Source: an uncultured Acidimicrobiaceae bacterium (GTDB lineage Bacteria > Actinomycetota > Acidimicrobiia > Acidimicrobiales > RAAP-2). Taken from it: DNA of 40,309 bases. Both the position numbers and the translations under genes were made by a program. Below are positions 5,032 to 39,660 of the stretch, piece by piece (the stretch's first letter is position 1; each line of letters starts with the position of its first letter). The stretch lies in the NCBI GenBank assembly GCA_903894295.1, contig CAITPI010000051.1, positions 1 to 40,309 on the forward strand. The letters are read 5' to 3'. The notes below the pieces were generated by a model, which did no database searches, was not told the DNA's origin, and worked only from the letters and a program-made list of their open reading frames with translations.

Positions 5032-5659
5032 ACGGCCGAGCCGTCGCCGGGAGCGCGCCCTGCTCCGGGAGAGTGGAGCTGGACGACTGGCCGGCATGGA
5101 CGAAGTGGGCCGGGGGAGCATCGCCGGCCCGGTGATGGTGGGTGTGGTGGTCGTGACGCTCGAGACACCGGCCATGCCGACCGGATTGCGGGATTCGAAG
5201 TTGTTGACGCCGGCCAGGCGGGACGCGCTGGTGCCCAGGATCGAAGCCTGGGCCCACGACCATGCCCTGGGTGTGGCATCGGCGGCGGAGATCGATGAGT
5301 GGGGACTGAGCGAAGCGCTGCGGCTCGCCGGTCAGCGCGCCCTGGCTGGCCTCATGGAGCGGCCGGACCTGGTGCTGCTGGACGGGAGTTTCAACTGGCT
5401 GGGTGGCACGTCGTCACCGGATCCCGTTCCACCTGTCGTGACCCAGGTCAAGGCAGATCTCCGGTGTGCGGCCGTGGCGGCGGCGAGTGTGCTGGCCAAG
5501 GTATCCCGGGACGCCTTGATGCGAACGCTGGCCGGAGAGTTTCCCGCCTACGGATGGGACCGCAACAAGGGGTATGGGTCACCGGACCATTTGGCGGCGC
5601 TCAAGAATCTCGGTCCCACCGTCGAACACCGGAGAACGTGGCGGCTTGGTGGGTCATGA
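5021..5659 (+). CDS. rnhB: Ribonuclease HII
   Basis: The product removes RNA from RNA-DNA hybrids and misincorporated ribonucleotides. The 212-aa protein has the RNase HII signature GMDEVGRGSIAGPV (catalytic Asp27 and Glu28), DSKLLTPARRD, a further acidic site in LVLLDGSFNW, VTQVKADLRC and the C-terminal NKGYGSPDHLAAL. The start was set at GTG 5021, which overlaps the ligase stop and has GGAG four bases upstream. The longer open frame beginning at 4922 lies inside the ligase and is not conserved-looking. Length is normal for the family. Confidence 0.93.
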   Translation: MAAERPSRRRERALLRESGAGRLAGMDEVGRGSIAGPVMVGVVVVTLETPAMPTGLRDSKLLTPARRDALVPRIEAWAHDHALGVASAAEIDEWGLSEALRLAGQRALAGLMERPDLVLLDGSFNWLGGTSSPDPVPPVVTQVKADLRCAAVAAASVLAKVSRDALMRTLAGEFPAYGWDRNKGYGSPDHLAALKNLGPTVEHRRTWRLGGS

Positions 5660-5666
5660 TTGGGCG
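5655..5666 (+). promoter_or_regulatory. Possible -10 box for leaderless amidohydrolase mRNA
   Basis: CATGAT (5655-5660) ends six bases before the ATG at 5667, the spacing seen at other leaderless-type starts in this window. No convincing -35 is seen. Confidence 0.3.
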
Positions 5667-7277
5667 ATGACCCAAACGACGTTGGTGAACGGCGCAGTGC
5701 GGACGATGGCCGGGACGAAGGCCGAGGCTGTCGCCATCGAAGACGGGGCCATCGTGCTGGTGGGTACGAACGCCGAGGTTCTCGAGTGGGGCCAGGGGTC
5801 GGCCGAGGTGATCGACGCCGGTGGGGCGAGTGTGCTTCCGGGCTTCATCGATGCCCACAACCACGTGAGACTCGGAGGTGACTCGGCGGCCATCCAACTG
5901 TTTGGCGCCACCTCGCTGGAGGAGATCCACGCCATCATCTCCGCCTACCTCGACGAACACCCGGACGTCGAGTGGATCGAGGCCGAAGGTTGGAACTACG
6001 CGGCGGTTCCAGGGGGACGGCCAACGGCCTCGATGCTGGATCCGGCAACCCGGGGCAAGCCGGCCTGGATCTTCTCCTATGACGTGCACACCGTCTGGCT
6101 GAACACCGAAGGGATGCGCCGGTGGGGCCTCGGGCGGGGAATGACCGAACTTCCCTTTGGCCGGCCCGAGTTCGACGAGACCGGCGAACCGACCGGATGG
6201 GTCCACGATTTCGCGACCATGGGAATCCATCCCCGGGGCCAGGCGGCGCTCGAGGCCGTCCTGCCCGGCTACGCCCTTGATGCCCAGTACGAGCAGTTGG
6301 TGTCCAACCTTTCCATGGCGGCCCGTTTTGGCCTCACCACGGTGGTCGAGCCCCAGAACGGCATGGCCGACATCGCCCTGTTCGAACGGGCCCACCGCGA
6401 AGGTGAACTGCGGTCCCGGCTGGTGGCGGCCTTGATCCATACACCCGAGTCGGAACCCGGTTCGCTGGACGAGATCGACGCCTTCATCCGCGACTACCGG
6501 CACGACCGGATTTCCGTCGGGCCCATCAAGCTCTACATCGACGACGTGATCGAACCCCACACCGCCGCCATGCTCGAGCCTTATGCGAACCATCCGGGCC
6601 GTGGCTCCCTCTTCTGGTCGCCCCCGGACTTCGCCGACGTCCTCTCGGACCTTGACCGGCGGGGTCTCCAGGCCTTCATCCATGCCACCGGAGACCGGGG
6701 CATCCGGGTGGCGCTTGACGCCATCGAAACCTCGGCCGCCCGGGTTGGGCCCGGTGACCGTCGACACCAGATCGTCCACGTCGAGTGCCTCCACGCCGAC
6801 GACATCGGCCGGTTTGCCTCGCTCGGCGTCGTGCCCTGCATCCAGCCCCGGCACTGTGCGCCCGACATCGTCACCGAGTGGCGCGAGAACGTGGGCCCGG
6901 CCCGGGAACGTTACGCCTGGGCCATGCGCTCCCTGATGGACTCCGGCGCCCGGGTGGCCTTCTCGAGTGACTACAACGTGGCGGAGATGGACCCCATGGT
7001 CGGACTGTTCACGGCGCTCACCCGGTCCGACCTGTCCGGCCGGGACGCCTGGAACACCAAGGAAACGATCACGCTCGACGAAGCCCTGGCCGCCTATACG
7101 GAGGGAAGCGCGTGGGCCAACTTTCTGGACAACCGGCGGGGACGGCTGCAGCCCGGTTTTCAGGCCGACCTCGTGGTGTTGGACCGGAACCTCGACGATC
7201 TCGGGGATCCGGGCGAACTGCTCGCCACCTCGGTGGCCCGGACGATCGTGGCGGGTGAAGTGGTGTACGAGGCCTGA
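5667..7277 (+). CDS. Amidohydrolase family 3 protein (YtcJ/NfdA-like metal-dependent hydrolase)
   Basis: The 536-aa product has the composite-domain amidohydrolase layout. An N-terminal beta-sandwich part (LVNGAVRTMAG, AVAIEDGAIVLVG) leads to the metal motif PGFIDAHNHVRLGG. A YtcJ-type core follows, with VVEPQNGMADI, KLYIDDVIEPHTAAM, HATGDRGIRVALDAIE, IVHVECLHADDI and the late metal Asp in FSSDYNVAEMDPM. Relatives hydrolyse N-formyl amides and other C-N bonds; the substrate here is unknown. The ATG at 5667 starts seven bases after rnhB. CATGAT ends six bases before it and there is no Shine-Dalgarno, so it may also be made from its own leaderless transcript. It converges on the acyl-CoA dehydrogenase with a 1-bp gap. 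Confidence 0.85.
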   Translation: MTQTTLVNGAVRTMAGTKAEAVAIEDGAIVLVGTNAEVLEWGQGSAEVIDAGGASVLPGFIDAHNHVRLGGDSAAIQLFGATSLEEIHAIISAYLDEHPDVEWIEAEGWNYAAVPGGRPTASMLDPATRGKPAWIFSYDVHTVWLNTEGMRRWGLGRGMTELPFGRPEFDETGEPTGWVHDFATMGIHPRGQAALEAVLPGYALDAQYEQLVSNLSMAARFGLTTVVEPQNGMADIALFERAHREGELRSRLVAALIHTPESEPGSLDEIDAFIRDYRHDRISVGPIKLYIDDVIEPHTAAMLEPYANHPGRGSLFWSPPDFADVLSDLDRRGLQAFIHATGDRGIRVALDAIETSAARVGPGDRRHQIVHVECLHADDIGRFASLGVVPCIQPRHCAPDIVTEWRENVGPARERYAWAMRSLMDSGARVAFSSDYNVAEMDPMVGLFTALTRSDLSGRDAWNTKETITLDEALAAYTEGSAWANFLDNRRGRLQPGFQADLVVLDRNLDDLGDPGELLATSVARTIVAGEVVYEA

Positions 7278-7278
7278 C

Positions 7279-8496
7279 TCAGGAGGCCGGCGCCGGATCC
7301 TTGGGCAGGCCGAGAACCCGCTCGCCGACGATGTTGCGCAGGACCTCGTCGGATCCGCCGGCGATCCGCATGCCGGGGACCCCCATCAGGTACTGGGTCC
7401 AGGCATAGGTACCCCACTGGCCGGTATCGGCCACAAGGGCCGGACCGAAGATGGAGTCGAGGGCTTCGTTGGTGCGCAACATGTTGGCCGTCAGGGACAT
7501 CTTGGCCAGCGACATTTCGGGACCGGGTAGCTGGCCGGCCAGGATCTTGGCCATGGCCCGTTGGTTCGTGTATCGGGCGACCCGTTCGTTGATGATGATG
7601 TTGGCGAGTTGCTGGCGCACCAGGGGGTCCCCGCTCTTGCCCATCACCTTGGCCGCCTCAATCAGTCGCGTGGTGGCCGGCAGTCCCACCCCGCCACCAC
7701 CGCCGCCGATGGCAGCCCGTTCGTTCATCAGGGTGGTGAGGGCCACGGTCCAACCACCGTTCACGTCACCGAGGAGGTGGTTCGCCGGCACCCGCACGTC
7801 GGTGAAGAAGACCTCGTTGAACGACGCCCCTCCGGTCATCTGGCGCAGCGGCCGCACCTCAACGCCGGGAGCGTGCATGTCAACCACGAAACCCGTGAGG
7901 CCCCGGTGCTTGGGCAGGTCGGGGTCGGTCCGGCAGATGATCTCCCCGATGTCGGATACCTGGGCGCCTGAGGTCCACACTTTCTGGCCGTTGATGACCC
8001 ACTCGTCGCCATCGAGTTCGGCCCGGGTGGTCAGGGAGGCGAGATCCGACCCCGAACCCGGCTCGCTGAACAACTGGCAGGCGACGATGTCGCCGCGCCA
8101 CATCTTCTTGAGGTAGGCCTGCTTCACCTCCTCGGTGGCGTGGTCAAGGATGGTCGGCGCCACCATGCCGAGACCGATGCCGTAGATCGACTGGGACGGC
8201 GTCAGATAATCGCCCGCGATGGCGTTGTAGGCCCGCTGGTGGTCGTTGGTGAGGCCCCGACCGCCGTAGGTGGTGGGGCCGGTAATCCAGCCGAAACCGG
8301 CGTCGTAGACGGTCTGGGCCCACGTCCTTGCTTTCGCCAGATCCTCGAGGGTCTGCTCCGGGGTCTTTTCCGGAAAAAGGCTGACGTCATCGGAGCCTTC
8401 ACCCCAGACAAAGGTCTCTTCGGGTCGCTTCTCGGCATGGCTGTCCAGAAACGCCCGGGCGTCGGCGCTGAACCCTTCAACAGACACGTTCGACAT
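7279..8496 (-). CDS. Acyl-CoA dehydrogenase
   Basis: The 405-aa FAD-dependent enzyme introduces the alpha-beta double bond in an acyl-CoA thioester. Typical features are QLFSEPGSGSDLASLTTRA (FAD and substrate loop), VINGQKVWTSGAQ, the middle-domain VRPLRQMTGGASFNEVFFTDV and the C-terminal RIAGGSDEVLRNIVGERVLGL. The N-terminal helical domain is complete. The ATG at 8496 is preceded by AAGGGGAG. A TACGCT box 32-37 bases upstream suggests its own promoter, in addition to readthrough from the upstream epimerase gene. The chain-length or steroid preference cannot be read from the sequence. Confidence 0.92.
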   Translation of the reverse strand: MSNVSVEGFSADARAFLDSHAEKRPEETFVWGEGSDDVSLFPEKTPEQTLEDLAKARTWAQTVYDAGFGWITGPTTYGGRGLTNDHQRAYNAIAGDYLTPSQSIYGIGLGMVAPTILDHATEEVKQAYLKKMWRGDIVACQLFSEPGSGSDLASLTTRAELDGDEWVINGQKVWTSGAQVSDIGEIICRTDPDLPKHRGLTGFVVDMHAPGVEVRPLRQMTGGASFNEVFFTDVRVPANHLLGDVNGGWTVALTTLMNERAAIGGGGGGVGLPATTRLIEAAKVMGKSGDPLVRQQLANIIINERVARYTNQRAMAKILAGQLPGPEMSLAKMSLTANMLRTNEALDSIFGPALVADTGQWGTYAWTQYLMGVPGMRIAGGSDEVLRNIVGERVLGLPKDPAPAS

Positions 8497-8527
8497 GGAC
8501 TCCCCTTGGGTTGTGAACTGTCTGCCC

Positions 8528-8533
8528 AGCGTA
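8528..8533 (-). promoter_or_regulatory. Likely -10 box (TACGCT) for the acyl-CoA dehydrogenase
   Basis: On the minus strand TACGCT ends 31 bases before the ATG at 8496. That leaves a short leader of about 25 nt containing the AAGGGGAG ribosome site. No good -35 was found. Confidence 0.4.
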
Positions 8534-8548
8534 TCCGAGTCCCGTCGC

Positions 8549-9469
8549 CTACCTGGAGTTGACGACCCACTCGAGGGCGGAGTCGAGATCCGGGTGGATG
8601 AAGTCGTATCCGGAGGCCTGGAGGGCGGCCGGCAGGACCCGTTGGCCGGACAGGATCATCTCCTGGGCCATTTCGCTTCCGAGGGCAACCTTGAGGGCCG
8701 TGGCCGGCACCGGGAGGACGGCGGGGCGGTGCAGGGCCGCTCCGAGGTGACGGGCCAGTTCGGCGTCGGTGGCCGGAGCCGGGGCGGTGGCGTTGACCGG
8801 TCCGTTCAGGCTTTGATCATCCAGGATCCGTCGGATGACGGCCACCTCGTCCTTCAGGGAGATCCAGCTCCGGTACTGACGCCCGGTCCCCATCTTTCCG
8901 CCGAGGCCCAGACGGAAGAGCGGCAACTGCTTGCCGAGGGCCCCACCGGTCGGGGCGAGCACGATTCCGGTACGCAGGAAGACCGTGCGGATGCCGGCCT
9001 CGAGTGCCGGTCGACCGGAGCGCTCCCAGGCGACGCAGACGTCGGCCAGGAAGCCCGAACCGGCCGGGCTCTGTTCGTCCACGGCGCGATCCCCGGTGTC
9101 GCCGTAGTAGCCGACGGCCGACGCGCTGACGAACACGGCCGGAGGGCGGGGGAGAAGGGCCTCGACCAACAGCGAGGTCGAGGCGGTTCGGCTGGCCAGA
9201 ATGGCCTCCTTGCGCGACGGACTCCAGCGGTGGTCACCGATCCCGGCGCCGGCGAGGTGGACCACGCCGTCAAAGGGGCCAGCGTCCGAAAGGGCATCGA
9301 CATCGAGCCAGTGGCGCTCGGGATCCCAGGGGACGTCGATGACGCCGGGAGTCTTGGTGGCAAGGGTCCCGGTCCGGGTCAGCCGGGCCACCTCGTGGCC
9401 GTCGGCCCGGAGGTCTTCCATCAGCGCCGAACCGATCAGGCCCGATGTGCCGGAGATCAGGATGTTCAT
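8549..9469 (-). CDS. TIGR01777-family NAD(P)-dependent epimerase/dehydratase-like protein
   Basis: The 306-aa product is an extended short-chain dehydrogenase of the TIGR01777 (YfcH-like) family. The Rossmann motif is ISGTSGLIGSAL. Further family segments are VVHLAGAGIGDHRW, SASAVGYYGDTGDRAVDE, RTGIVLAPTGGALGKQLPLF, WISLKDEVAVI and GPVNATAPAP. The physiological reaction is unknown for the family. It starts within the stop of the upstream hydrolase (ATGA, 4-bp overlap) and has AAAGGA upstream, so the two are translationally coupled. Confidence 0.9.
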   Translation of the reverse strand: MNILISGTSGLIGSALMEDLRADGHEVARLTRTGTLATKTPGVIDVPWDPERHWLDVDALSDAGPFDGVVHLAGAGIGDHRWSPSRKEAILASRTASTSLLVEALLPRPPAVFVSASAVGYYGDTGDRAVDEQSPAGSGFLADVCVAWERSGRPALEAGIRTVFLRTGIVLAPTGGALGKQLPLFRLGLGGKMGTGRQYRSWISLKDEVAVIRRILDDQSLNGPVNATAPAPATDAELARHLGAALHRPAVLPVPATALKVALGSEMAQEMILSGQRVLPAALQASGYDFIHPDLDSALEWVVNSR

Positions 9470-10254
9470 GGCAAGGTCCTTTCTGCAGCCAGCGCCAGCG
9501 TGTCACGAACCAACGCAGCGAACGAATCGGGATGGGAGAGGTGGGCGCCGTGGGAGGCGCCGGGGATCTCGACCAGCTTGGCTCCCAAGGTCTCCTCGGC
9601 CAGCCAGCGGACGCATTCCCGGTGGTGGCCGAGCGATGCCTCACCCCGACCGAAGACGGCCGGGGTGGCCAGCGTTGTCACGTCGAACGGGGGTTCAGAC
9701 GAACGGATGGCGGCGAGCTCCTTGGCCAGGGCGGCACCGTCGGCCTGGCGCGCTTCCTGGCTGGCTGGACTGAGTCGGTCCCAGGCCGCGTCTCCCACCA
9801 TGCGGCGGAAGAACGCCTCCGCCTGTTCGGCCGGCGAAGGTTCCGCCGATGGCCGGTCCACAGGGTTGCGGGGCCGCCGGCGCCACATGGGCAACCAGGG
9901 CAGGGGCGGCTCGTAGGCCCCGATGGCCCTGATCGGCCCGTCGGGATGGCGCAGCGCCGCCCCGATGGCGATGGCTCCGCCGTAGCTGTGGCCCACCACC
10001 ACGCAGGTGCGGTTGTCGATCACGGAGAACAGGTCATCGATGTGCCCGTCCATCGTTTCGTTGAGGGGAAGGGCATCCCGCGAGTTCTGGTACCCCCGCC
10101 GGTCGTAGGTGACGATGGGGAGGTCGGGAAGCCGTCGGACCACGCGCGAAAAACTGGTGGCGCGGTCAAGCGAACCGTGAACCAGGACCACGAGGGGAGC
10201 ATTTTCCACCGGCCCGTGGTGGTGAAACACCGCGAGCGGAGAAGGTGACGTCAT
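9466..10254 (-). CDS. Alpha/beta hydrolase
   Basis: The 262-aa product has the alpha/beta hydrolase fold. The oxyanion strand is LVVLVHGSLDRATSF, the nucleophile elbow is VVVGHSYGGAI (Ser), and the late catalytic His is in IPGASHGAHLSHPDSF. The middle carries a variable cap. The open frame extends to 10323, but ATG 10254 begins the conserved part and has CAGTCT seven bases upstream without a Shine-Dalgarno. It heads an operon with the TIGR01777 gene and is divergent from HU. Substrate unknown. Confidence 0.88.
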   Translation of the reverse strand: MTSPSPLAVFHHHGPVENAPLVVLVHGSLDRATSFSRVVRRLPDLPIVTYDRRGYQNSRDALPLNETMDGHIDDLFSVIDNRTCVVVGHSYGGAIAIGAALRHPDGPIRAIGAYEPPLPWLPMWRRRPRNPVDRPSAEPSPAEQAEAFFRRMVGDAAWDRLSPASQEARQADGAALAKELAAIRSSEPPFDVTTLATPAVFGRGEASLGHHRECVRWLAEETLGAKLVEIPGASHGAHLSHPDSFAALVRDTLALAAERTLP

Positions 10255-10267
10255 GGGGTCCAGACTG
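10255..10267 (-). promoter_or_regulatory. Possible -10 box (CAGTCT) at a leaderless-type start
   Basis: CAGTCT (10267 to 10262, minus strand) is followed by ggacccc and then the ATG at 10254. The surrounding 18 bases match those at the kgd start at 16 positions. Confidence 0.4.
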
Positions 10268-10356
10268 TCACCAGTTGGGGGTCCGGCGGGCCTATGCACA
10301 CATTTCGCCGCGGAATCGTGCATTCTGTTGTCCTAACCGATCAACAAGGAGAGACA

Positions 10357-10665
10357 GTGCCCCTTACCAAAACTGACCTCATCACCACCGTCGCAGCCCA
10401 CACCGGAGTTGCCGCCAAGGATGTCGCCGCCGTTCTGGGTGGCATCGAAGACGTCGTGGTCGCCAACGTGGCCAAGGGCGAGAAGGTTGTCATCACCGGC
10501 TTCCTGACCTTTGACCGCACCGCCCGGGCCGCCCGCGACGGTCGCAACCCGCAGACCGGTGAGACCATCAAGATCAAGGCGTCGAAGAACCCCAAGGTGA
10601 CCGCCGGCGCTTCGTTCAAGAAGGTCGTCAACGGCCAGGCGCCGGCCCCGAAGATCAAGGGCTAG
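10357..10665 (+). CDS. hup: HU-family DNA-binding protein
   Basis: The 102-aa histone-like protein bends and compacts DNA as a dimer. It shows TKTDLITTVAAHTGVAAKDV (N-terminal helices), KVVITGFLTFDRTARAARDG and the signature RNPQTGETIKIKASKNPKVTAG, ending with AGASFKKVVNG. It lacks the long Lys/Ala tail found in many actinobacterial HupB proteins. The start is the GTG at 10357 with AAGGAG six bases upstream; the frame is open earlier, to 10294, but without conservation. It appears to be monocistronic and is followed by a large hairpin. Confidence 0.94.
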   Translation: MPLTKTDLITTVAAHTGVAAKDVAAVLGGIEDVVVANVAKGEKVVITGFLTFDRTARAARDGRNPQTGETIKIKASKNPKVTAGASFKKVVNGQAPAPKIKG

Positions 10666-10697
10666 TTCCAGAAGCTCCAGTCGTACCAGGAGTACCT

Positions 10698-10740
10698 CTT
10701 CGGCGGTGGCGCCCGGGAAATCCCGGCTCCACCGCCGAAG
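10698..10740 (+). terminator. Large stem-loop downstream of HU
   Basis: The arms 10698-10709 (cttcggcggtgg) and 10729-10740 are perfect 12-bp reverse complements. Inside them a second stem, CCGGG/CCCGG, encloses an AAAT loop, so the whole is an extended hairpin with one small internal bulge. There is no T-run after it. It lies 33 bp after the HU stop and is the likely terminator. The rest of the gap to queE (10741-10839) shows no gene. Confidence 0.65.
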
Positions 10741-10839
10741 CGCGTCCGGGTCCGGAGCGATATGGGCGCAGGCGGAGGAAAAGTGCACGCCCCGCCGCCG
10801 ATCCCCCGATGCCCGACGTGGCCCTTGGGGCCCGGGTGG

Positions 10840-11610
10840 CTAGAGCTGGCCGATCGCCTTGTGGGTCTGGGGGATGACCCGGGTCCGGGGATGAAGGCGC
10901 AGTGCCTCCGCTTGAAGTTCAAGCATCAGGTCCGGACCGGGTGCCTCGGACGCCAGGGCAAATGGGGTCAACGGCTGGAGGAAGAGCTCCGGTACCGGCC
11001 CGGGGAAGCATCCGGCCACCTCGGCCACCATGGTCACGGCCCGGGCAAACTCCATGCGGTCGATTGCGGGGCCGACGACCAGCTTGACCCAGGTGGTGAG
11101 GCCAAGGTCGAGGCAGGTCCGGAGAAACTCCTCCTGGGTGGCCTCCGACACCGATTCGCCGTCAACGCTCGGCAGCTTCAGGTCCATGCTGACGAACGAC
11201 AGCCCCTCCGCCACCTCGGCCAGCGCACCGGGCAAGGTCCCGTTGGTCTCCAGCATGACCCTGGTCCCGAGGCGGGCCAGTCCGGTGACGAGATCGGGAA
11301 CCACCCGGCGTTGGAAGAGCGGCTCGCCTCCCGTCAGGCTCACCGAGTGATGGGGCACCTGGTCGGCGAGGCGACGAACTGCCTCCAGGACGACTTCGGT
11401 ATCCATCGGGCTGGCGATCCCGACCCAGTCCCGCCGTCCGGCGGTCTGTTCCATCCGACAGGTGCCCGCGGTCTTCTCGAGCGCCTCGGGTTGGTCGCAG
11501 TAGTGGCAGCGGATGTTGCACCCCATGAGCCGGACAAAGATCTGGCGCTCGCCCACAAGAGCAGCCTCACCCTGGATGGCGGAGAACACTTCGGAAACAA
11601 AGAGGGTCAT
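10840..11610 (-). CDS. queE: 7-carboxy-7-deazaguanine synthase (QueE), radical SAM
   Basis: QueE converts 6-carboxytetrahydropterin to 7-carboxy-7-deazaguanine on the way to preQ0 and queuosine. The 256-aa protein starts FVSEVFSAIQGEA and binds a 4Fe-4S cluster through Cys31, Cys35 and Cys38 in the CNIRCHYCD motif (CX3CX2C). The SAM-binding glycine-rich strand is SLTGGEPLFQ, followed by MLETNGTLPG and FVSMDLKLPS. The ATG at 11610 overlaps the queC stop by 4 bp (ATGA). The frame is open further upstream, but that part lies inside queC. It is the last gene of queDCE. Confidence 0.94.
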   Translation of the reverse strand: MTLFVSEVFSAIQGEAALVGERQIFVRLMGCNIRCHYCDQPEALEKTAGTCRMEQTAGRRDWVGIASPMDTEVVLEAVRRLADQVPHHSVSLTGGEPLFQRRVVPDLVTGLARLGTRVMLETNGTLPGALAEVAEGLSFVSMDLKLPSVDGESVSEATQEEFLRTCLDLGLTTWVKLVVGPAIDRMEFARAVTMVAEVAGCFPGPVPELFLQPLTPFALASEAPGPDLMLELQAEALRLHPRTRVIPQTHKAIGQL

Positions 11611-12284
11611 CGGTCGAGGGCGGGATCGGGCTGTCCGGCCTCGGCAAAACCGCGGGACCGCAGCACGCAGGCGTCGCAGGTGCCGCACGGATGGGCCCCA
11701 CCCCGGTAACAGGACCAGGTGAGGTCAAGGGGCGCTCCGACGGACAGTCCCAGACGGACGATGTCACCCTTGGTGAGGTCGATCAGCGGGGTGTTGATGG
11801 CGATCGGGTCGCCGTCCACACCGCGTTTCTGGCCGGTGGCTGCCACCTGACGGAAGGCGTCGATGAACGCCGGCCGGCAATCGGGGTAGCCGGAGTAGTC
11901 GATGGCGTTGACTCCGATCCAGACGCCTCCGAGGTTCCGGGCCTCGGCCACACCGAGTGCCACTGCGAGGAAGATGCTGTTGCGGGCGGGCACGTAGGTC
12001 ACCGGGATGCCGTCGGTGGAGTCGGCGGCGTCGGGGACCTCCAGGGAATCATCGGTCAGGGCGGAGCCACCCCAGGCCGATGTGTCGAGATGGACCACGA
12101 GGTGTTCGGACCGGTAGAAACCGGCGACTCCGGCCGCCCGCTCCAACTCGGTGCGGTGACGTTGTCCGTAGTCGAAGGTCAGGGCCAGCGGTGCCACGTC
12201 GCTCTCGGCGTGGGCCAGCGCCATGCAGACGGTCGAATCCAGGCCGCCCGAAAGCACGACCAACTGGCGCCCGTCGGCCGTCAC
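11607..12284 (-). CDS. queC: 7-cyano-7-deazaguanine synthase (QueC)
   Basis: QueC makes preQ0 from 7-carboxy-7-deazaguanine, ammonia and ATP. The 225-aa protein begins with the PP-loop VVLSGGLDSTVCM, followed by LTFDYGQRH, the YVPARNSIFLAVALGVAE segment and GVNAIDYSGYPDCRPAF. The zinc-site cysteines are in WSCYRGGAHPCGTCDAC near the C-terminus. The GTG at 12284 is chosen as start because it overlaps the queD stop (GTGA) and places the PP-loop at the usual N-terminal position. The open frame to 12374 lies inside queD. Confidence 0.94.
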   Translation of the reverse strand: MTADGRQLVVLSGGLDSTVCMALAHAESDVAPLALTFDYGQRHRTELERAAGVAGFYRSEHLVVHLDTSAWGGSALTDDSLEVPDAADSTDGIPVTYVPARNSIFLAVALGVAEARNLGGVWIGVNAIDYSGYPDCRPAFIDAFRQVAATGQKRGVDGDPIAINTPLIDLTKGDIVRLGLSVGAPLDLTWSCYRGGAHPCGTCDACVLRSRGFAEAGQPDPALDR

Positions 12285-12643: not shown

Positions 12644-12655
12644 GCCCCGACGCTA
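12644..12655 (-). promoter_or_regulatory. -10 box (TAGCGT) of leaderless queDCE transcript
   Basis: On the minus strand TAGCGT (12655 to 12650) is followed by cggggc and the ATG at 12643. Transcription would begin at or next to the start codon. It shares a 70-bp intergenic space with the kgd promoter. Confidence 0.55.
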
Positions 12656-12700
12656 ACGCAAGCCACGGTCCGACCCGACAGGGCCGGCAAGGCGTCCCGG

Positions 12701-12713
12701 TAGTCTGGACCGC
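12701..12713 (+). promoter_or_regulatory. -10 box (TAGTCT) of leaderless kgd transcript
   Basis: TAGTCT (12701-12706) ends seven bases before the ATG at 12714. No Shine-Dalgarno precedes that ATG. The -35 is weak; CCGACA at 12675-12680 is the best match, with a long spacer. Confidence 0.55.
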
Positions 12714-16370: not shown

Positions 16371-16416
16371 GCCATGGCGCCCGTTGTCGGCCACAAGTGG
16401 TTGACTGGAGAGTGAG

Positions 16417-17669: not shown

Positions 17670-17681
17670 TAGCCTCAAGGC
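17670..17681 (+). promoter_or_regulatory. -10 box (TAGCCT) of leaderless fabZ transcript
   Basis: TAGCCT (17670-17675) is followed by caaggc and the GTG at 17682. There is no Shine-Dalgarno, so fabZ probably has its own leaderless promoter in the 26-bp gap after the NYN gene. Confidence 0.5.
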
Positions 17682-20431: not shown

Positions 20432-20445
20432 GAAGGCCGAGGCTA
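20432..20445 (-). promoter_or_regulatory. -10 box (TAGCCT) of leaderless helicase transcript
   Basis: On the minus strand TAGCCT (20445 to 20440) is followed by cggccttc and the GTG at 20431. Both this box and that of the opposite gene lie in a 30-bp intergenic space. Confidence 0.45.
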
Positions 20446-20449
20446 TCGG

Positions 20450-20461
20450 TAGGGTGGGTCG
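20450..20461 (+). promoter_or_regulatory. -10 box (TAGGGT) of leaderless alpha/beta hydrolase transcript
   Basis: TAGGGT (20450-20455) is followed by gggtcg and the GTG at 20462. Its -35 would lie in the first codons of the divergent helicase gene. Confidence 0.45.
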
Positions 20462-25948: not shown

Positions 25949-25960
25949 GGTGCCATCCTG
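25949..25960 (-). promoter_or_regulatory. Possible -10 box (CAGGAT) at the galactokinase-family start
   Basis: On the minus strand CAGGAT (25960 to 25955) is followed by ggcacc and the ATG at 25948. No Shine-Dalgarno of normal strength is present. Confidence 0.35.
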
Positions 25961-25999: not shown

Positions 26000-26012
26000 C
26001 ATAGTGGGGGCC
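26000..26012 (+). promoter_or_regulatory. Possible -10 box (CATAGT) of leaderless carbonic anhydrase transcript
   Basis: CATAGT (26000-26005) is followed by gggggcc and the ATG at 26013. TTAGCC at 25976-25981 could be a poor -35 with an 18-bp spacer. Confidence 0.4.
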
Positions 26013-26580: not shown

Positions 26581-26599
26581 TTCGGGCCACGATCCCGCC
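26564..26599 (+). promoter_or_regulatory. Promoter TTGACC-18-CACGAT before the racemase leader ORF
   Basis: TTGACC (26564-26569) and CACGAT (26588-26593) are separated by 18 bp. The -10 box ends six bases before the ATG at 26600, so the transcript would begin at that codon. Together with the ddl promoter it has one of the best -35 elements seen in the window. Confidence 0.45.
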
Positions 26600-26650
26600 A
26601 TGACCAATGCTGTTGACTCCGTTTCGAATCCCGACCGGGGACGTCGATGA
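26600..26650 (+). CDS. 16-codon leader ORF overlapping the racemase start
   Basis: The frame runs from ATG 26600 to TGA 26650 and encodes [16 protein letters not shown]. Its stop overlaps the ATG of the racemase gene (ATGA), so ribosomes finishing here could re-initiate on the racemase. A promoter with its -10 box six bases before the ATG fits a leaderless leader ORF. No repeated regulatory amino acid is obvious beyond the RGRR end. Below the size of a normal gene; supported by position only. Confidence 0.4.
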
Positions 26651-28287: not shown

Positions 28288-28292
28288 TGGCG

Positions 28293-28529: not shown

Positions 28530-28562
28530 GAGTTCCTCCTCGGCAACCTCTGCAACCTTCCC

Positions 28563-28568: not shown

Positions 28569-28589
28569 TCCCCGCGCCCACCCCCGACC

Positions 28590-28601
28590 TACCATGCGGG
28601 G
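28590..28601 (+). promoter_or_regulatory. -10 box (TACCAT) of leaderless MFS transcript
   Basis: TACCAT (28590-28595) is followed by gcgggg and the GTG at 28602. There is no Shine-Dalgarno. Confidence 0.5.
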
Positions 28602-30122: not shown

Positions 30123-30149
30123 GACATCGCCTCCAGACCAGCCAGCCGT

Positions 30150-31940: not shown

Positions 31941-32060
31941 AACTCTGAACTTCCTCCTTGGCACGGGCACCCTCTGGCGCCGATTGCTCGTCTGGTCCCC
32001 TCGGACAGGTCGGGTCGCTGGTGACGGTCTTGTCGTTTCCGGGTGTGGTGACCGACACCC

Positions 32061-32076
32061 ATGCTAGGCAAGGAGT
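32061..32076. promoter_or_regulatory. Overlapping divergent -10 boxes of pckG and thiL
   Basis: On the minus strand TAGCAT (32066 to 32061) points to pckG. On the plus strand TAGGCA (32065-32070) ends six bases before the GTG of thiL. The two hexamers share two base pairs. The thiL box lacks the final T, and an AAGGAG sits only one base before the GTG, so the thiL assignment is weak. Confidence 0.3.
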
Positions 32077-33066: not shown

Positions 33067-33192
33067 GGGGCCCGGACCTTTCGGCCCGGGGTTGCCGGGG
33101 ATGGCCCGGACAGAAGCGGACCCGCGTTACTACCGCAGTGGTGGGTGGACCCGAAGGTCTCCTGGGTTGCTTTCGGCGGGTGCGGTAGGGAA

Positions 33193-33209
33193 CTTCGCCA
33201 AGGGCGAAG
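33193..33209 (-). terminator. 7-bp hairpin downstream of rpmB
   Basis: CTTCGCC (33193-33199) and GGCGAAG (33203-33209) are exact reverse complements around a 3-nt loop. They lie 18 bp after the rpmB stop on the minus strand, and ttccct follows in that direction. The rest of the 33067-33192 gap between thiL and rpmB holds GC-rich imperfect repeats near 33064-33082 that may terminate thiL, and no gene. Confidence 0.4.
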
Positions 33210-33227
33210 GCCGGCCGCCCGGACCGC

Positions 33228-33437
33228 TCAGGCCGGGATGTTGCGGACCGGCCGCTTGGTGACCTTGCCGGCCCGGATGCAGGACGTGCAGACGTGCAGT
33301 CGCTTGGGTGATCCGTCCACCATGGCCCGCACCTTCTGGATGTTGGGATTCCAGCGACGCTTGGTGCGCCGATGGGAATGGCTGACGTTCATGCCGAACG
33401 AAGGCTTCTTGCCGCAGACTTCACACACTGCTGCCAT
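33228..33437 (-). CDS. rpmB: 50S ribosomal protein L28 (zinc-ribbon form)
   Basis: The 69-aa basic protein starts [20 protein letters not shown] and continues [17 protein letters not shown], the L28 signature. Cys5/Cys8 and Cys50/Cys53 (HVCTSC) form a complete zinc ribbon, the C+ type. The start ATG 33437 has AGAGGAAG about nine bases upstream. The open frame continues to 33605 but lies antisense to the next gene. It is divergent from the fakA-like gene with 76 bp between. Confidence 0.96.
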
Positions 33438-33496
33438 GTTGATCCGACTTCCTCTTGAGATCGCTGCGGCCAAAAGAACCGCGGGGTAAGCAGTAA

Positions 33497-33513
33497 AGGT
33501 TAGCATCCTGCCC
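33497..33513. promoter_or_regulatory. Overlapping divergent -10 boxes of rpmB and the fakA-like gene
   Basis: On the plus strand TAGCAT (33501-33506) is followed by cctgccc and the ATG at 33514, a leaderless-type start. On the minus strand TAACCT (33502 to 33497) could drive rpmB with a leader of about 55 nt. The hexamers share two base pairs, so polymerase could not occupy both at once. Confidence 0.45.
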
Positions 33514-35190
33514 ATGGAGGTCCTGGACGCCCTGACGGCAGACGCACTTTGTGGGGCGATTTCGTCCTTCCGCGACGGCCTGGTGCAGCACCGGGAGGTC
33601 ATCAACCGCCTGAACGTTTACCCGGTTCCGGATGGAGACACCGGCACCAACATGTCCCTCACCCTGGAGTCGGTGGTCAAGGAACTCGAGACGGTCGACC
33701 GGTCCGACCTTGAAGCCGTGTGTCGGGCCATCTCCCACGGGTCCCTGATGGGGGCGCGTGGCAACTCCGGAGTCATCCTCTCGCAACTCCTGCGCGGGCT
33801 GGCCGAAGGTCTGAACCAACCCGACGGTCTGGCGGGCCCGGACCATCTGGCCCACGCCCTTGCCCGGGCTGACGAGTTGGCCCGTGAAGCGGTCATGCGA
33901 CCGGTTGAAGGGACCATTCTCACGGTGGCCCGGGGGGCCGCCGAAGGGGCGCAAGGCCAAAGTGGTGCCGACCGGTCGCTGCTCTCCGTGGTGGAAGGAG
34001 CCCGGCAGGGAGCCGCCGAAGCATTGGCCCTGACTCCGACCATGCTGCCCGTGCTGGCCCAGGCCGGTGTGGTCGATTCCGGTGGCACCGGACTGCTCCT
34101 GCTCTTTGACGCACTACTCCACACGATCGACGGTCGACCCATGCCGGTGGCCGATGCGGTGGCCGATCTTGACGCCGGCCCGGTCTTTTCCGGCCCGGAA
34201 GGCCACTCGGTCATCGACGAAGCAGACAAGGCGCTGGCCGGGTTGCGCTACGAAGTGATGTACCTCCTCGAGGCGGAGGACGCCACCATCCCGGCGTTCA
34301 AGGAGGTCTGGGCCGGACTCGGTGACTCCATTGTGGTGGTCGGCGGCGACGGCCTGTGGAACTGCCACATCCACACCGACGACGTCGGGGCGGCCATCGA
34401 AGCCTGCCTTGATGCCGGTCGACCCCGGTCGATCCGGGTGACCGATCTCCTTGACGAGGTGGAAGAAGAGCGGTGGGTCCGCGAGGCGGCGGTGGCCGAA
34501 GACTTGGTGCCGCCCGAGGTGCAACGACCCGTTTCGCTCTCCGGAGTGGTGGCAGTGGCCAGTGGCGACGGCATCGGACGCATCTTCCGCTCACTGGGCG
34601 TCGAAGGACTGATCGCCGGTGGCCAGTCGATGAATCCGTCGATCGCCGAACTCGTGGAGACGGTGGACGCCATGCGCTCGGCCGAGGTCATCGTGCTGCC
34701 CAACAACTCCAACATCCGTCCGGTCGCCAACCGGGTGGACGAACTGAGCGCCAAGAAGGTGTGGGTCGTGCCGACCGACACCATCGCCGAAGGCTTCGCC
34801 GCGTTGTTGGCCTATGACCCCGAAGCCAGTGGAGAAGTGAACGCGGCGGCCATGGAGGAGTCGGCCCGGCGGGTGGTGCCGGGAGAGGTGACCCGGGCCG
34901 TGCGCAACTCGGACTCTCCGGCCGGCCCCATCGCCACCGGTGACTGGCTGGGCCTGTCGCGGGACGGGATCGAGGTGGTGGCCGATTCCCTGGCTGCTGT
35001 GGCGTGTGAACTGCTGGACCAGCTCATGACGGCCGAGCACGACCTGGTCACCATCATCGAAGGGGACGGATCGGGGGCGGCCGACACCCGCCGGATCACC
35101 GAGTGGGTCAAGGAGCACCGGCCGGAGGCCGAGGTGGAGGTTCACCACGGCGGCCAGCCGTTGTATCCGTATCTCTTTTCCATCGAGTGA
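33514..35190 (+). CDS. fakA: DAK2-domain protein (YloV / fatty acid kinase FakA-like)
   Basis: FakA phosphorylates fatty acids held by FakB, which feeds exogenous acyl chains to PlsX/PlsY. The 558-aa product begins with the DAK2 domain: [20 protein letters not shown] (nucleotide-site Asp40 and Asp42) and [16 protein letters not shown], followed by [18 protein letters not shown]. The C-terminal two-thirds match the YloV extension, with [19 protein letters not shown] and [15 protein letters not shown]. plsX at the end of the same block supports the fatty-acid assignment, although many actinobacterial homologues are uncharacterised. The ATG 33514 has TAGCAT seven bases upstream. Confidence 0.85.
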
Positions 35191-37418
35191 CCATCCCGGG
35201 TGGATCGGGCTCCGGGGACCAACCCTCACCGGGTCGCCGCCTCCGGCAACTGGCCGGGCTGTCCCTGTCGGTCCTGAAGGGCGTCGGACCGGCCGCCGAG
35301 GCAGATCTCGCCACCCTCGGTCTGGCTTCGGTCCTTGATCTGCTGACCCACTACCCGCGCCGGTACATCGACGCCACCCGTCTGGTGACGATCGACCAGC
35401 TCCGGGCCGGGGAGAAGGCATCGGTCCTCGGCGAGGTGGTCCGCGTCCAGAAGATCGGCGGTGGTTACGGAAAGGGCCGACGGTCTCCCGGTCGGGTCGA
35501 AGTGACGGTGGCGGATCCGACCGGGCGGCTTGGGGTCACGTTCTTCAACCAGGCGTGGCGGGCCGGACAGCTTCCCCCGGGCACCCTTGCGTTGTTCTTC
35601 GGTCCGGTCACGTCGTTCCGGAATGCGCTCCAGATGACCGGGCCCCAGGTGGAGATACTGGCCCTGGCCAGCCAGGACGGGGAGGCCCGGCCGGACCGCG
35701 GCCGGATCTTCCCCGTCTATCCGCTGACCGAGAAGGTGAAGCTCACCTCGGCCCGGCTCGGCCGGTATGTGGCCGAGGCACTCGAGCGGGCCGGCCCACT
35801 CGCCGATCCGGTGCCGGAGCCGTGGCTTGACCGGGTGCAGCTCATCGACCGTACGACGGCGCTCAATGCCATCCACCGACCCGAAGCCATGTCCGAGGTG
35901 GAGCCGGCCCGGCGTCGGCTCGCCTTCGACGAACTGTTCCGGCTGCAGTTGGCGTTGGTCCTCCGCCAGCGGCGCCTCGAAGACGACGCCCGGGGCATCC
36001 GGCACCGTACCGCCCCGTCTTCGGCGGAGGACAACCTGTGGCAACAGTTCGTTGCGGCCTTGCCCTTCGAGTTGACCAATGCCCAGAGCCGGGCCATCGA
36101 GGCCATCGCCGGTGATCTGGCTTCACCCCTGCCGATGCACCGCCTGCTGCAAGGTGATGTCGGGGCCGGCAAGACGCTGGTGGCGCTGGCGGCCATGCTC
36201 ATCTCCGCCCAGGGTGGTCACCAAAGCGCACTGATGGCCCCCACCGAAGTGCTCGCCGAACAGCACGCCGCCGAGGTGGCCCGGTTGGTCGACGGCCTGT
36301 CGGTGCCTGACCCCGGCTGTCTCGGTGGCCGGCGGCCGTTGCGCAGCGCCCTGTTGACCAACCGCACCCCGGCGGGCGAACGGAGCCGGTTGCACGACGA
36401 ACTCCGCACCGGACAACTCGACATCCTGGTCGGTACCCACGCCCTTCTGGTCGACGAAGTCGTGTTCCATTCACTGGGTGTGGTGGTCATCGACGAGCAG
36501 CACCGGTTCGGTGTGGAACAGCGGGCCGCCCTTCGTGACAAGGGCCGGGGTCAAGACGGCACCGGGGCCGATCCCGACCTGCTGGTCATGACGGCCACGC
36601 CGATTCCCCGCACCGCGGCCATGGTGGTGTTCGGCGATCTGGACATGACGATCATCGACGAACTGCCACCCGGCCGTCAGGGGATTGCCACCACCTGGCT
36701 TCGGGGCCGGGACCGGCACGGGCGAGCCTGGTCGCGGGTGCGTGACGAAGTGGCGGCCGGTCATCGGGCGTTTGTGGTCTGTCCTCTCGTGGAGGGCTCG
36801 GAACGTATCGAGGCGACATCGGCGGTCGCCGAGGCCGAGCGGCTGGCCGGGGAGGACCTGGCCGGGCTTCGCATCGGGCTGTTGCATGGCCAGATGAAGG
36901 CCGCCGACAAGGAGCGCGTCATGGCCGGGTTCCGTTCGGGCGGGCTCGACGTGCTGGTGGCGACCACCGTGATCGAAGTGGGTGTCGATGTGCCCGAAGC
37001 GACCGTGATGGTGATCGAGGACGCCGACCGGTTCGGGATTGCCCAGCTGCACCAACTCAGGGGTCGGGTGGGCCGTGGCTCGGCCCCGTCGTACTGCTTC
37101 CTGCTGTCCGACGAAGAGTCGAGCGACGAGGCGACGGCCCGGCTCGAGGCGATGGAGCGGACCTCGGACGGATTCGAACTGGCCGATGTGGATCTCCTGC
37201 TCCGGGGTGAGGGCACCATCCTTGGTGCCCGCCAGAAGGGGAGAAGCGATCTCAAGCTGGCCCGGCTGCTCTCGGATCGGGACCTGGTCGCCGAGGCCCG
37301 TCAACTGGCGGTCGAGGTGGTGGCTGGCGACCCGACGCTGACTGGACACCCCCTTCTGGTGGAGGAGTTGCGGGTCTTCGTCGATGACGAAGAAGCGGCG
37401 TTCCTGTTCAAGAGCTGA
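35187..37418 (+). CDS. recG: ATP-dependent DNA helicase RecG
   Basis: RecG remodels stalled forks and branched DNA. The 743-aa product has the N-terminal wedge/OB domain (LKGVGPAAEADLATLGLASV, HYPRRYIDATRL, GRLGVTFFNQAW), the Walker A LLQGDVGAGKTLVALAAML (323-330), DEQHRFGVEQR (DEQH 436-439), VMTATPIPRTAAM, RIGLLHGQMKAADKERVM, ATTVIEVGVDVPEAT and QLHQLRGRVGRG, all the RecG helicase motifs. The start GTG 35187 overlaps the fakA-like stop (GTGA, 4 bp). The frame is open from 35103 but inside the upstream gene. Confidence 0.95.
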   Translation: MTIPGGSGSGDQPSPGRRLRQLAGLSLSVLKGVGPAAEADLATLGLASVLDLLTHYPRRYIDATRLVTIDQLRAGEKASVLGEVVRVQKIGGGYGKGRRSPGRVEVTVADPTGRLGVTFFNQAWRAGQLPPGTLALFFGPVTSFRNALQMTGPQVEILALASQDGEARPDRGRIFPVYPLTEKVKLTSARLGRYVAEALERAGPLADPVPEPWLDRVQLIDRTTALNAIHRPEAMSEVEPARRRLAFDELFRLQLALVLRQRRLEDDARGIRHRTAPSSAEDNLWQQFVAALPFELTNAQSRAIEAIAGDLASPLPMHRLLQGDVGAGKTLVALAAMLISAQGGHQSALMAPTEVLAEQHAAEVARLVDGLSVPDPGCLGGRRPLRSALLTNRTPAGERSRLHDELRTGQLDILVGTHALLVDEVVFHSLGVVVIDEQHRFGVEQRAALRDKGRGQDGTGADPDLLVMTATPIPRTAAMVVFGDLDMTIIDELPPGRQGIATTWLRGRDRHGRAWSRVRDEVAAGHRAFVVCPLVEGSERIEATSAVAEAERLAGEDLAGLRIGLLHGQMKAADKERVMAGFRSGGLDVLVATTVIEVGVDVPEATVMVIEDADRFGIAQLHQLRGRVGRGSAPSYCFLLSDEESSDEATARLEAMERTSDGFELADVDLLLRGEGTILGARQKGRSDLKLARLLSDRDLVAEARQLAVEVVAGDPTLTGHPLLVEELRVFVDDEEAAFLFKS

Positions 37419-37429
37419 CGACTTGCCGG

Positions 37430-37441
37430 TACGATTCCCCC
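37430..37441 (+). promoter_or_regulatory. -10 box (TACGAT) of leaderless rsmD transcript
   Basis: TACGAT (37430-37435) is followed by tccccc and the GTG at 37442. TTCAAG at 37407-37412 may be a -35 with a 17-bp spacer. Confidence 0.5.
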
Positions 37442-37984
37442 GTGCGGGTCATCGGAGGTGAACTGCGGGGTCGAAAACTCACCGCCCCGGCTTCCGCTTC
37501 GGTCCGACCGACCCTGGACCGGGTGCGGGAAGCGGTCTTCGACATCCTCTATTCGCGCGGTGGGGTCGACGGGCGCTCGGTGCTCGACCTGTTTGCCGGT
37601 TCGGGGGCAATGGGTATCGAAGCGTTGTCCCGGGGCGCAACCCACGTGACCTTTGTCGACCAGGATCCGTTGGCCATCTCGACCATCCGGGACAACCTGG
37701 CCGGGGTCGGGTTGTCGGAGGCCGAAGGCGACGGGGACGCAACGATCATCCGGGCCGACGCCCCAACCTGGTTGACGCGCACCGAAGCCCGTTTCGACCT
37801 TGCCTTGTGTGACCCGCCCTACGGGTTCGACCAGTGGCCTGCGTTGATCGCCTCGCTGCCGGTCGATCTGGCCGTCCTCGAGTCCGGTTCCGAGGTTGCG
37901 GTACCGGACGGATGGGAAAGCCTCAAATCCAAACGATACGGGGGTACCATCGTCACCGTGGTCCGTCCGTTTCGGACGGCGTAG
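37442..37984 (+). CDS. rsmD: 16S rRNA (guanine966-N2)-methyltransferase RsmD
   Basis: RsmD methylates G966 of 16S rRNA in the assembled small subunit. The 180-aa SAM-dependent enzyme has MRVIGGELRGRKL, RPTLDRVREAVFDIL, the SAM loop VLDLFAGSGAMGIEALSRG and the catalytic DPPYGFDQW. The GTG start fits a leaderless transcript. coaD follows after 11 bp. Confidence 0.94.
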   Translation: MRVIGGELRGRKLTAPASASVRPTLDRVREAVFDILYSRGGVDGRSVLDLFAGSGAMGIEALSRGATHVTFVDQDPLAISTIRDNLAGVGLSEAEGDGDATIIRADAPTWLTRTEARFDLALCDPPYGFDQWPALIASLPVDLAVLESGSEVAVPDGWESLKSKRYGGTIVTVVRPFRTA

Positions 37985-37995
37985 AAAGGTTTCCC

Positions 37996-38478
37996 GTGAC
38001 GATTGCGTTAGTCCCCGGCTCGTTTGATCCGGTCCACAACGGACATCTGGAGGTCATCGAACGGGCCGCCCGTCTCTTCGACGAGGTCGTGGTGGCCACC
38101 GTGCGCAACCCGCAGAAGAGCGAGGCGTGTTTCACCCTGGAAGAGCGTGAAGAGATTCTGGCCGCCACGCTCTCCCACGTGGAAAACGTCCGCATCGTGG
38201 CGTTCTCCACCCTGATCGTCGATGTCGCCCGCGACGTTGGAGCCAGCGTGATCGTGAAAGGCCTCCGGGTGGTCTCCGACTTTGAAAACGAGTTGCAGAT
38301 GGCCCAGATGAACAAGCAACTCTCCGGCGTCGAGACCCTGTTCCTGCCGACAAGTTCGGCGCATTCGTTCATCGCGTCACGCCTCCTGCGGGAGGTGGCC
38401 CGCTACGGCGGCGACGTGCGGGCGTTCGTGCCGGAAGTGGTTGCGCAACGCCTTGAGGAGAAGTTTGCCAATGAGTGA
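37996..38478 (+). CDS. coaD: Phosphopantetheine adenylyltransferase CoaD
   Basis: CoaD transfers AMP to phosphopantetheine to give dephospho-CoA, the fourth step of CoA synthesis. The 160-aa product shows LVPGSFDPVHNGHLEVIERA (nucleotidyltransferase HxGH), VVVATVRNPQKSEACFTLEER and KGLRVVSDFENELQMAQMN, then SSAHSFIASRLLREVARYGG. The GTG start is preceded by AAAGG. The frame is open to 37834 inside rsmD. It overlaps the next gene by 8 bp. Confidence 0.95.
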   Translation: MTIALVPGSFDPVHNGHLEVIERAARLFDEVVVATVRNPQKSEACFTLEEREEILAATLSHVENVRIVAFSTLIVDVARDVGASVIVKGLRVVSDFENELQMAQMNKQLSGVETLFLPTSSAHSFIASRLLREVARYGGDVRAFVPEVVAQRLEEKFANE

Positions 38479-39079
38479 CACGTTCGACGATGGAGAAGTG
38501 GACATCACTCCGGGCAATCCGGCGGAAGCGGAGGCGTTGGTCCGCGAGGTTCTCGACCTTGTGCAGAACGCCCGGGTGATGCCCCTGTCGACCTCGGCGC
38601 TGGTCGACCAGGGACTGGTCGTCAACCTGCTCGAGGAGATCCTCATCAAGATGCCCGAGGAGGTGCGTCAGGCCCGGTGGCTGCTCCGTGAGCAGGACGA
38701 GTTCATCGCCTCCAAGGCCCGCGAAGCCGACGCCCTGATGGAGGAGGTGCGGGTCCAGGCCGAGCGGATGGTCCAGCGCACGGAGATCGTCCGCCAGGCC
38801 AACCAGGTGGCCCAGAAGATCATCGACGAGGCGAACGAACGTTCCCGCATGATGATCCATGAGGTCGAAGATTTTGTCGACCGGAAACTGGCGAGTTTCG
38901 AGATTGTTCTGGACCGCACCCTGAAAACGGTGCAGGGTGGGCGCGAGAAACTTCAGGCGGTGCCGTTGCCCCAGATGAACATGGTGGAGCCGGCCACGGC
39001 GAACCGCGGTGACGAGGCGGAACCGGCGTCGCGCCTGCACGAAGAGTCGGAAGGCTTCTTCGACCAAGACCTGGCGTAG
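38471..39079 (+). CDS. SepIVA/DivIVA-like coiled-coil protein
   Basis: The 202-aa protein is acidic at both ends and strongly helical in the middle. The stretch from about residue 60 to 150 has heptad-like spacing (READALMEEVRVQAERMVQR, RQANQVAQKIIDEANERSRM) typical of SepIVA/DivIVA-type proteins. In mycobacteria SepIVA, a septum-associated protein, lies next to DUF177 and rnc, which fits this location. The start ATG 38471 overlaps the coaD stop and has GAGGAG about 13 bases upstream. The role in division is inferred from family and location. Confidence 0.75.
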   Translation: MSDTFDDGEVDITPGNPAEAEALVREVLDLVQNARVMPLSTSALVDQGLVVNLLEEILIKMPEEVRQARWLLREQDEFIASKAREADALMEEVRVQAERMVQRTEIVRQANQVAQKIIDEANERSRMMIHEVEDFVDRKLASFEIVLDRTLKTVQGGREKLQAVPLPQMNMVEPATANRGDEAEPASRLHEESEGFFDQDLA

Positions 39080-39084
39080 CCGCC

Positions 39085-39636
39085 ATGGCCACCGCCTTGG
39101 GCCAGGAGGGAACGAGACGGCCGGCCCGGCCGTTCATCGTCCAGGTGGCGGCGCTGCGCAAGGCCATCGGAACGTCGCGCCACGAGCATCGGGACGGCAT
39201 CATCAACGGCCTGGCCGCTGTCGGCGTGGTGGTGCCCGACGGTTCGGTGACCGATGTCGATCTGGAACTCACATCGGATCCGGGCGGCATCACCGCCCAG
39301 GGCGTGGTCAAAGCGCCGTGGACGTCGGAGTGCCGTCGATGTGGTGGACCGGTTTCCGGCATGGTGGAGGCCGATGTCCGGGAACGCTTCGCCCCCACCA
39401 CCGGTCGTTATGCCGACGAAGACGCCTATCCGCTGACCGGTGACGAGATCGATCTCGAGCCCCTGGCCCGGGACGCCGTCCTGCTCGGGCTGCCCCTTGC
39501 CCCGTTGTGCCGCGAGGAGTGCCGGGGGCTCTGCCCGGTCTGTGGAACCGATCTCAACGAGTCCCCGTGCACCTGTCAACCGGCCGGTGACCCCCGTTGG
39601 TCGGCCCTTGACGCGCTGCGTGATCCACCGGCCTGA
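39085..39636 (+). CDS. YceD family (DUF177) protein
   Basis: The 183-aa product has the DUF177 pattern: an N-terminal helix/strand part (FIVQVAALRKAIG), VVKAPWTSECRRCGGPVSG, the acidic YPLTGDEIDLEPLARDAVLL and the zinc-binding APLCREECRGLCPVCGTDLN with a further Cys pair in SPCTC. YceD is usually encoded just before rpmF, as here, and is linked to 23S rRNA or ribosome assembly. It begins five bases after the SepIVA-like gene. Confidence 0.88.
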   Translation: MATALGQEGTRRPARPFIVQVAALRKAIGTSRHEHRDGIINGLAAVGVVVPDGSVTDVDLELTSDPGGITAQGVVKAPWTSECRRCGGPVSGMVEADVRERFAPTTGRYADEDAYPLTGDEIDLEPLARDAVLLGLPLAPLCREECRGLCPVCGTDLNESPCTCQPAGDPRWSALDALRDPPA

Positions 39637-39645
39637 AGAATGGCC

Positions 39646-39660
39646 TAGGATGTTCTCCTT
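39646..39660 (+). promoter_or_regulatory. Possible -10 box (TAGGAT) before rpmF
   Basis: TAGGAT (39646-39651) ends nine bases before the rpmF ATG, so the transcript could be leaderless or have a few leader bases. Confidence 0.35.

Follow-up and report, generated by a model that had tools for sequence, protein, structure and literature searches.

The closest described systems are those of other Actinobacteria. Zheng et al. 2011 (PMC3160421) described TA-led genes, in which a TANNNT hexamer lies about 12 bp upstream as counted from its first T, and from which leaderless mRNAs were inferred; such genes make up on average 19.2% of genes in Actinobacteria (range 2.3–29.8%; 86/89 genomes), and the word Acidimicrobium is absent from the main text of that paper. 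According to the report of Cortes et al. 2013 (PMC3898074) on M. tuberculosis, TANNNT is present at 73% of primary start sites, with no -35 motif, CGN often precedes the box, and transcription starts preferentially at a purine; the leaderless share is put at 22–26% of genes, depending on the basis of calculation, with no ribosomal protein genes and nearly no energy-metabolism genes among them. As described by Shell et al. 2015 (PMC4633059), mycobacterial translation from the 5′ end uses ATG and GTG only, and TTG works in leadered mRNAs with a Shine-Dalgarno site. A further paper that mentions both leaderless and Acidimicrobi- (PMC10783764) has anti-Shine-Dalgarno types as its subject.

We have analysed a window of 40,309 nucleotides, which is the complete contig C51 of a draft genome (2.68 Mb, 137 contigs) from an uncultured genus that most likely belongs to the Acidimicrobiia; among 80 named loci, the highest kgd identities (61–63%, best segment) are with bins from metagenomes that carry the labels Acidimicrobiaceae (L003), Ilumatobacteraceae (L068), and unplaced Actinomycetota (L062). 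The box found here and its distance from the start codon are like those of the TA-led genes. An earlier note listed nine starts in the window as carrying TANNNT, and each of these hexamers is exact, with a gap (the number of nucleotides between hexamer and start codon) of 6–9; a tenth, upstream of cofC, is missing from that list (Table 1). The chance rate given there, 1 in 75 starts, is too low; with alternative start codons taken into account, it rises to about 1 in 31 per gene. Using 3.26 of 407 genes per other offset as the chance rate, nine boxes are indeed far above expectation (P = 2.8e-6 for at least nine of 35 heads, Poisson, four offsets), and with cofC included the probability is 4.0e-7 for at least ten of 36 heads, where about 1.1 would be expected by chance. 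The window has no Rfam matches at gathering thresholds.

Table 1. Exact TANNNT hexamers and CANNNT strings before start codons in the window, with their occurrence in orthologs.
Gene	Hexamer	Position (strand)	Gap (nt)	Start codon	Orthologs
cofC	TACAGT	803..808 (-)	7	GTG 795	sole ortholog found: TANNNT, gap 6
queD	TAGCGT	12650..12655 (-)	6	ATG 12643	TANNNT in 9/9, gap 6–7
kgd	TAGTCT	12701..12706 (+)	7	ATG 12714	9/9 same-genus; 5/7 same-order loci (gap 6–9)
fabZ-like (FabA-like domain)	TAGCCT	17670..17675 (+)	6	GTG 17682	9/9, gap 6–8
helicase (name from the earlier note)	TAGCCT	20440..20445 (-)	8	GTG 20431	8/8
alpha/beta hydrolase (20462)	TAGGGT	20450..20455 (+)	6	GTG 20462	3/4
MFS gene	TACCAT	28590..28595 (+)	6	GTG 28602	7/7, hexamer and gap identical
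fakA-like	TAGCAT	33501..33506 (+)	7	ATG 33514	10/10 same-genus
rsmD	TACGAT	37430..37435 (+)	6	GTG 37442	7/8
rpmF	TAGGAT	39646..39651 (+)	9	ATG 39661	gap 9 in 5/6, gap 10 in the sixth
amidohydrolase	CATGAT (read from the sequence)	5655..5660 (+)	6	in-frame ATG 5667	
alpha/beta hydrolase (10254)	CAGTCT	10262..10267 (-)	7	ATG 10254	n = 8
galactokinase-like	CAGGAT	25955..25960 (-)	6	ATG 25948	n = 7
carbonic anhydrase	CATAGT	26000..26005 (+)	7	ATG 26013	n = 5
16-aa ORF before the CoA-transferase III (racemase-family) gene	CACGAT	26588..26593 (+)	6	ATG 26600	

We consider it very probable that the TANNNT hexamers are -10 boxes from which transcription begins at the start codon, so that the mRNAs are leaderless. 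The typical distance from the hexamer of a -10 box to the RNA start is about 7 nt, which corresponds to a gap of 6, so that the RNA would begin on the start codon itself. In the mechanism we propose, TANNNT would act as a promoter -10 element, most likely for the primary sigma factor; RNA polymerase would begin about 7 nt past the hexamer, on the A or G that opens the start codon and with no leader, and the ribosome would initiate at the 5′-terminal AUG or GUG with no Shine-Dalgarno pairing. Between positions 20432 and 20461 two divergent GTG starts, those of the helicase and the 20462 hydrolase, are just 30 bp apart, and their boxes stand back to back with 4 bp between them; with such an arrangement, only one of the two promoters should be usable at a time.

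The earlier note had suggested that a genome-wide peak of TANNNT at this offset would support leaderless starts, and such a peak is present. Genes were called from codon usage only, using no motif information, and hexamers ending a given distance before any in-frame ATG or GTG were scored for each gene, the range searched beginning at the 5′ end of its open frame and closing 90 nt beyond the predicted start, with several starts allowed per gene; gene starts throughout are those of our own caller and not mapped RNA 5′ ends. In the first sample of the genome (33/41 stretches, eight with N being left out; 490,268 bases, 407 genes), TANNNT is found at gaps 6, 7, and 8 in 54, 18, and 8 genes, compared with about 3.3 per other offset, and in a held-out sample of the same genome (16/20 stretches, four with N being left out; 227,478 bases, 188 genes) the numbers are 26, 12, and 6, compared with 1.57 elsewhere. 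The excess amounts to 17% and 21% of genes respectively, and roughly 18% of genes carry an exact box. One-letter variants show small rises at most in the held-out sample (GANNNT, +6.5 at gap 7; AANNNT, +3.3 at gap 6; TTNNNT, +3.1 at gap 7). Allowing several starts per gene does raise the number of matches at every offset, and the boxes could in principle reflect stop codons that contain TA at the ends of upstream genes, or the free choice of starts; yet other offsets, codons, and frames, at which starts could be chosen just as freely, yield no peak, the peak repeats in the held-out sequence, and it is most pronounced at divergent heads, which have no upstream gene ending there, such that we give this explanation almost no credence.

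The peak is also seen in relatives, with 39, 22, and 20 of 296 genes at gaps 6, 7, and 8 in a pooled same-genus set, and 16, 31, and 9 of 253, 21, 12, and 11 of 203, and 5, 8, and 2 of 54 in the same-order genomes G014, G017, and G018. The other five of the eight same-order genomes are small samples (13–42 genes, with 4–9 matches each): G013, G016, G019, and G020 have 4, 9, 9, and 4 matches at gaps 6–8 among 13, 37, 42, and 17 genes; in G015, where 4/31 genes have them and gap 10 alone has equally many, the peak is not clear. An apparent complete absence of the box in G014 and G017 proved to be an artefact of antisense frames being called at 72–75% GC, and both genomes show the box once codon usage is seeded from the window's genome. 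In relatives of such GC content (L184–L186, L192–L194, and L202–L221), self-training on the longest frames picks antisense frames and the box is falsely absent; a related codon table as seed cures it.

The main gap thus varies by genome, being 6 in the window's genome and 7 in G014, and this bears on the possibility of a -10 element from which RNA often starts 1–5 nt upstream of the start codon, producing very short leaders. Gaps of 8 to 10 do occur, as at the helicase, rpmF, and many orthologs, and for rpmF, where a gap of 9 lies outside the main gap, a leader of a few nucleotides may fit better than none. Against short leaders as the common state, with the dominant gap of 6 a start site at standard spacing coincides with the start codon's first base, and the lack of TTG among box starts (below) suggests that the codon sits at the 5′ end. 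We regard short leaders as fairly unlikely in general, noting that the two readings overlap and that both may apply, depending on the gene.

Start codon and reading frame are both important to the position of the box. With counts pooled over ten sets and gaps 6–8 compared with the background per offset, TANNNT precedes 163 in-frame ATG codons (background 2.95 per offset) and 129 in-frame GTG codons (5.75), and among the triplets compared the peak is confined to these two. There is no peak at TTG (4 of 633 candidates, with a background of 1.90 per offset and about 5.7 expected) or at CTG (5 of 2965 candidates, background 4.80), out-of-frame ATG and GTG have 18 and 4 matches, as expected from 6.00 and 1.75 per offset, and AT[ATC] and A[CAG]G triplets in the same pooled sets have no TANNNT peak. 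At TTG starts, Shine-Dalgarno sites are weakly in excess (by 19.7, with about 62 expected), and together with the missing box peak this suggests that TTG is used by leadered genes only, while its absence among box starts points to a start codon located at the 5′ end. The same ATG/GTG-only pattern is known as the mycobacterial start-codon rule (Shell et al. 2015), for which the evidence was from reporters, whereas here it is a statistical pattern.

The location of the box within gene arrangements is similarly restricted. With the heads of transcription units judged from divergent orientation and not from mapped operons, the box is present at 39/112 divergent heads in the first sample, as against 3/89 genes that lie 20 nt or less behind a same-strand neighbour; in the held-out sample the corresponding figures are 27/64 and 2/34. 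Box genes also lack Shine-Dalgarno sites, which are found in 0/71 box genes and 80/325 others in the first sample, and in 0/44 and 34/138 in the held-out sample, although this absence is partly mechanical because the hexamer takes up part of the scanned region; in a control window 40 nt further upstream, such strings occur in 5/71 box genes and 22/325 others. The assembly contains no 16S rRNA, and the anti-Shine-Dalgarno sequence could thus not be read from it. The box might instead be a translation signal in the mRNA, such as an A/U-rich site for the ribosome or S1, with the transcripts being leadered, and its location near the distance of a ribosome-binding site, as well as the lack of Shine-Dalgarno sites in box genes, would fit this. 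Were it such a signal, operon-internal genes and TTG starts should have it as well, but the box is rare at the former and at chance level at the latter; moreover, a fixed T, A, and T with free middle bases is the form of a -10 element. We think this alternative very improbable.

The sequences around the box are in keeping with its putative role as a -10 element. At spacers of 8–29, neither sample of the genome showed a TTG-type -35, and CGN precedes the box more often than it precedes control TANNNT hexamers (24/76 versus 17/103, Fisher p 0.020, in the first sample; 17/44 versus 8/56, Fisher p 0.0096, in the held-out sample). The context matches that of mycobacterial SigA-type promoters, without a conserved TTG-type -35, with CGN frequent and TGN rare before the box. 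CGN precedes 13/56 boxes in G014 and 9/40 in G017, the excess not being clear in either. TANNNT, the lack of a -35, and the CGN context are common to this genome and M. tuberculosis (Cortes et al. 2013), with the difference that RNA was mapped there and sequence alone is used here.

Of the claims in the earlier note, leaderless starts at TANNNT are supported by offset, frame, start codon, divergent heads, absence of Shine-Dalgarno sites, and conservation (below), while two extensions are not: the widening of the box to YANNNT, considered below, and the statement that such starts dominate operon-first genes. The latter is overstated, as the exact box at gaps 6–8 is found at 43/112 and 27/64 divergent heads, or about 40%; in the first sample the remaining divergent heads comprise 28 with a Shine-Dalgarno site and 41 with neither. 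A Shine-Dalgarno-like string is present at all eight of the window heads to which the note had assigned one. We also fitted an EM mixture to estimate leaderless and Shine-Dalgarno shares, but discarded the result because the 'leaderless' class was just as large at wrong gaps (null gaps, 0.592 and 0.445; gaps 5–9, 0.385).

Conservation was examined in stretches around kgd and fakA from ten same-genus genomes, which are largely syntenic with the window. For the 36 window heads, orthologs were taken only where the alignment reaches the N-terminus, with alternative in-frame starts allowed in both groups. TANNNT is present at gap 5–9 in 68/71 same-genus orthologs of the ten box heads and in 12/178 orthologs of the 26 other heads, the orthologs within the genus not being independent of each other. 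These 12 are in rnhB (5/8), carbonic anhydrase (4/5), and one each in an acyl-CoA dehydrogenase, the 10254 hydrolase, and the galactokinase-like gene, suggesting that a few genes gain or lose the box. Beyond the genus the comparison covered kgd (Table 1) and fakA, whose box recurs in 6/7 same-order loci, one of which is in the same-genus genome G008. In 60 named kgd loci (of 80 fetched) TANNNT is found at gap 6–9 in eight, three of them nearer relatives (L002, L004, and L062) and the others scattered; this count proves nothing alone, because some other four-offset blocks match equally often. Upstream of fakA (33495–33513), conservation at the genus level extends past the box, with AAAGGTTAGCATCCTG in most rows, which suggests a further constraint or the site of a regulator.

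CANNNT had been proposed as an equivalent of the box at five starts. The strings are present (Table 1), but CANNNT is common at every offset in the window's genome, and in neither of its two samples is there a peak or excess at this one, so YANNNT is unsupported as a general rule here; mild rises are seen in the same-genus set (26 at gap 7, compared with 10 to 20 at other gaps of the phase) and in G014 (21 at gap 6, compared with 6 to 14). Orthologs lend support to two of the five. Those of the 10254 hydrolase have CAGGCT at gap 7–9 in 4/8 and at gap 10 in 1/8, TAGTGT at gap 9 in 1/8, and neither in 2/8; those of carbonic anhydrase have TANNNT at gap 8–9 in 4/5, and the fifth has CATGCT at gap 7. 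In these two genes CANNNT is probably a variant -10 box. There is little support for such a role at the galactokinase-like gene, where the seven orthologs divide into one with TAGCCT at gap 6 from the nearest start, one with CATATT upstream of a different in-frame start, and five with neither. The amidohydrolase has no ortholog in the same-genus stretches compared, and the 16-aa ORF (26600–26650) and the CoA-transferase III gene behind it overlap at an ATGA, where the ORF stops and the gene starts. In this genome CANNNT is no more than an occasional variant.

Two other upstream motifs are conserved. The AIR synthase-related thiL-like gene (GTG 32077) has TAGGCA, a TANNNA variant, at 32065–32070 with a gap of 6, and 6 of the 9 orthologs compared share it, the gap being 6 (once 7); there is no general excess of TANNNA at gap 6 in the held-out sample. 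The NYN-domain gene (ATG 16417) has TTGACTG at 16401–16406, about 10 nt before the start and shared with all 9 orthologs compared, which does not conform to TANNNT.

If the share of start sites with TANNNT were the same as in M. tuberculosis (73%), the 18% of genes with an exact box would suggest that about a quarter of genes are leaderless, a share that falls within the published actinobacterial range. Earlier papers already describe the box and its spacing, the start-codon rule, the CGN context, and the missing -35; new here is that they are demonstrated in an uncultured genus, with conservation traced gene by gene, by which the mycobacterial-style architecture, including the ATG/GTG-only pattern, is extended to an uncultured lineage. 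Gene-start annotation in such genomes should make use of the box, which corrects starts missed by coding potential alone; for example, the codon-usage caller set the kgd start 85 codons too late. The leaderless set of M. tuberculosis has no ribosomal protein genes and almost no energy-metabolism genes, whereas kgd, which is central to energy metabolism, and perhaps the ribosomal protein gene rpmF are leaderless candidates here. It is possible, though we hold it only tentatively, that a set of leaderless genes including kgd and perhaps rpmF is inherited gene by gene across the whole order and differs from that of mycobacteria. The conserved box genes provide test cases for why some genes remain leaderless, and if kgd and perhaps rpmF are indeed among them, leaderless translation would serve core growth.
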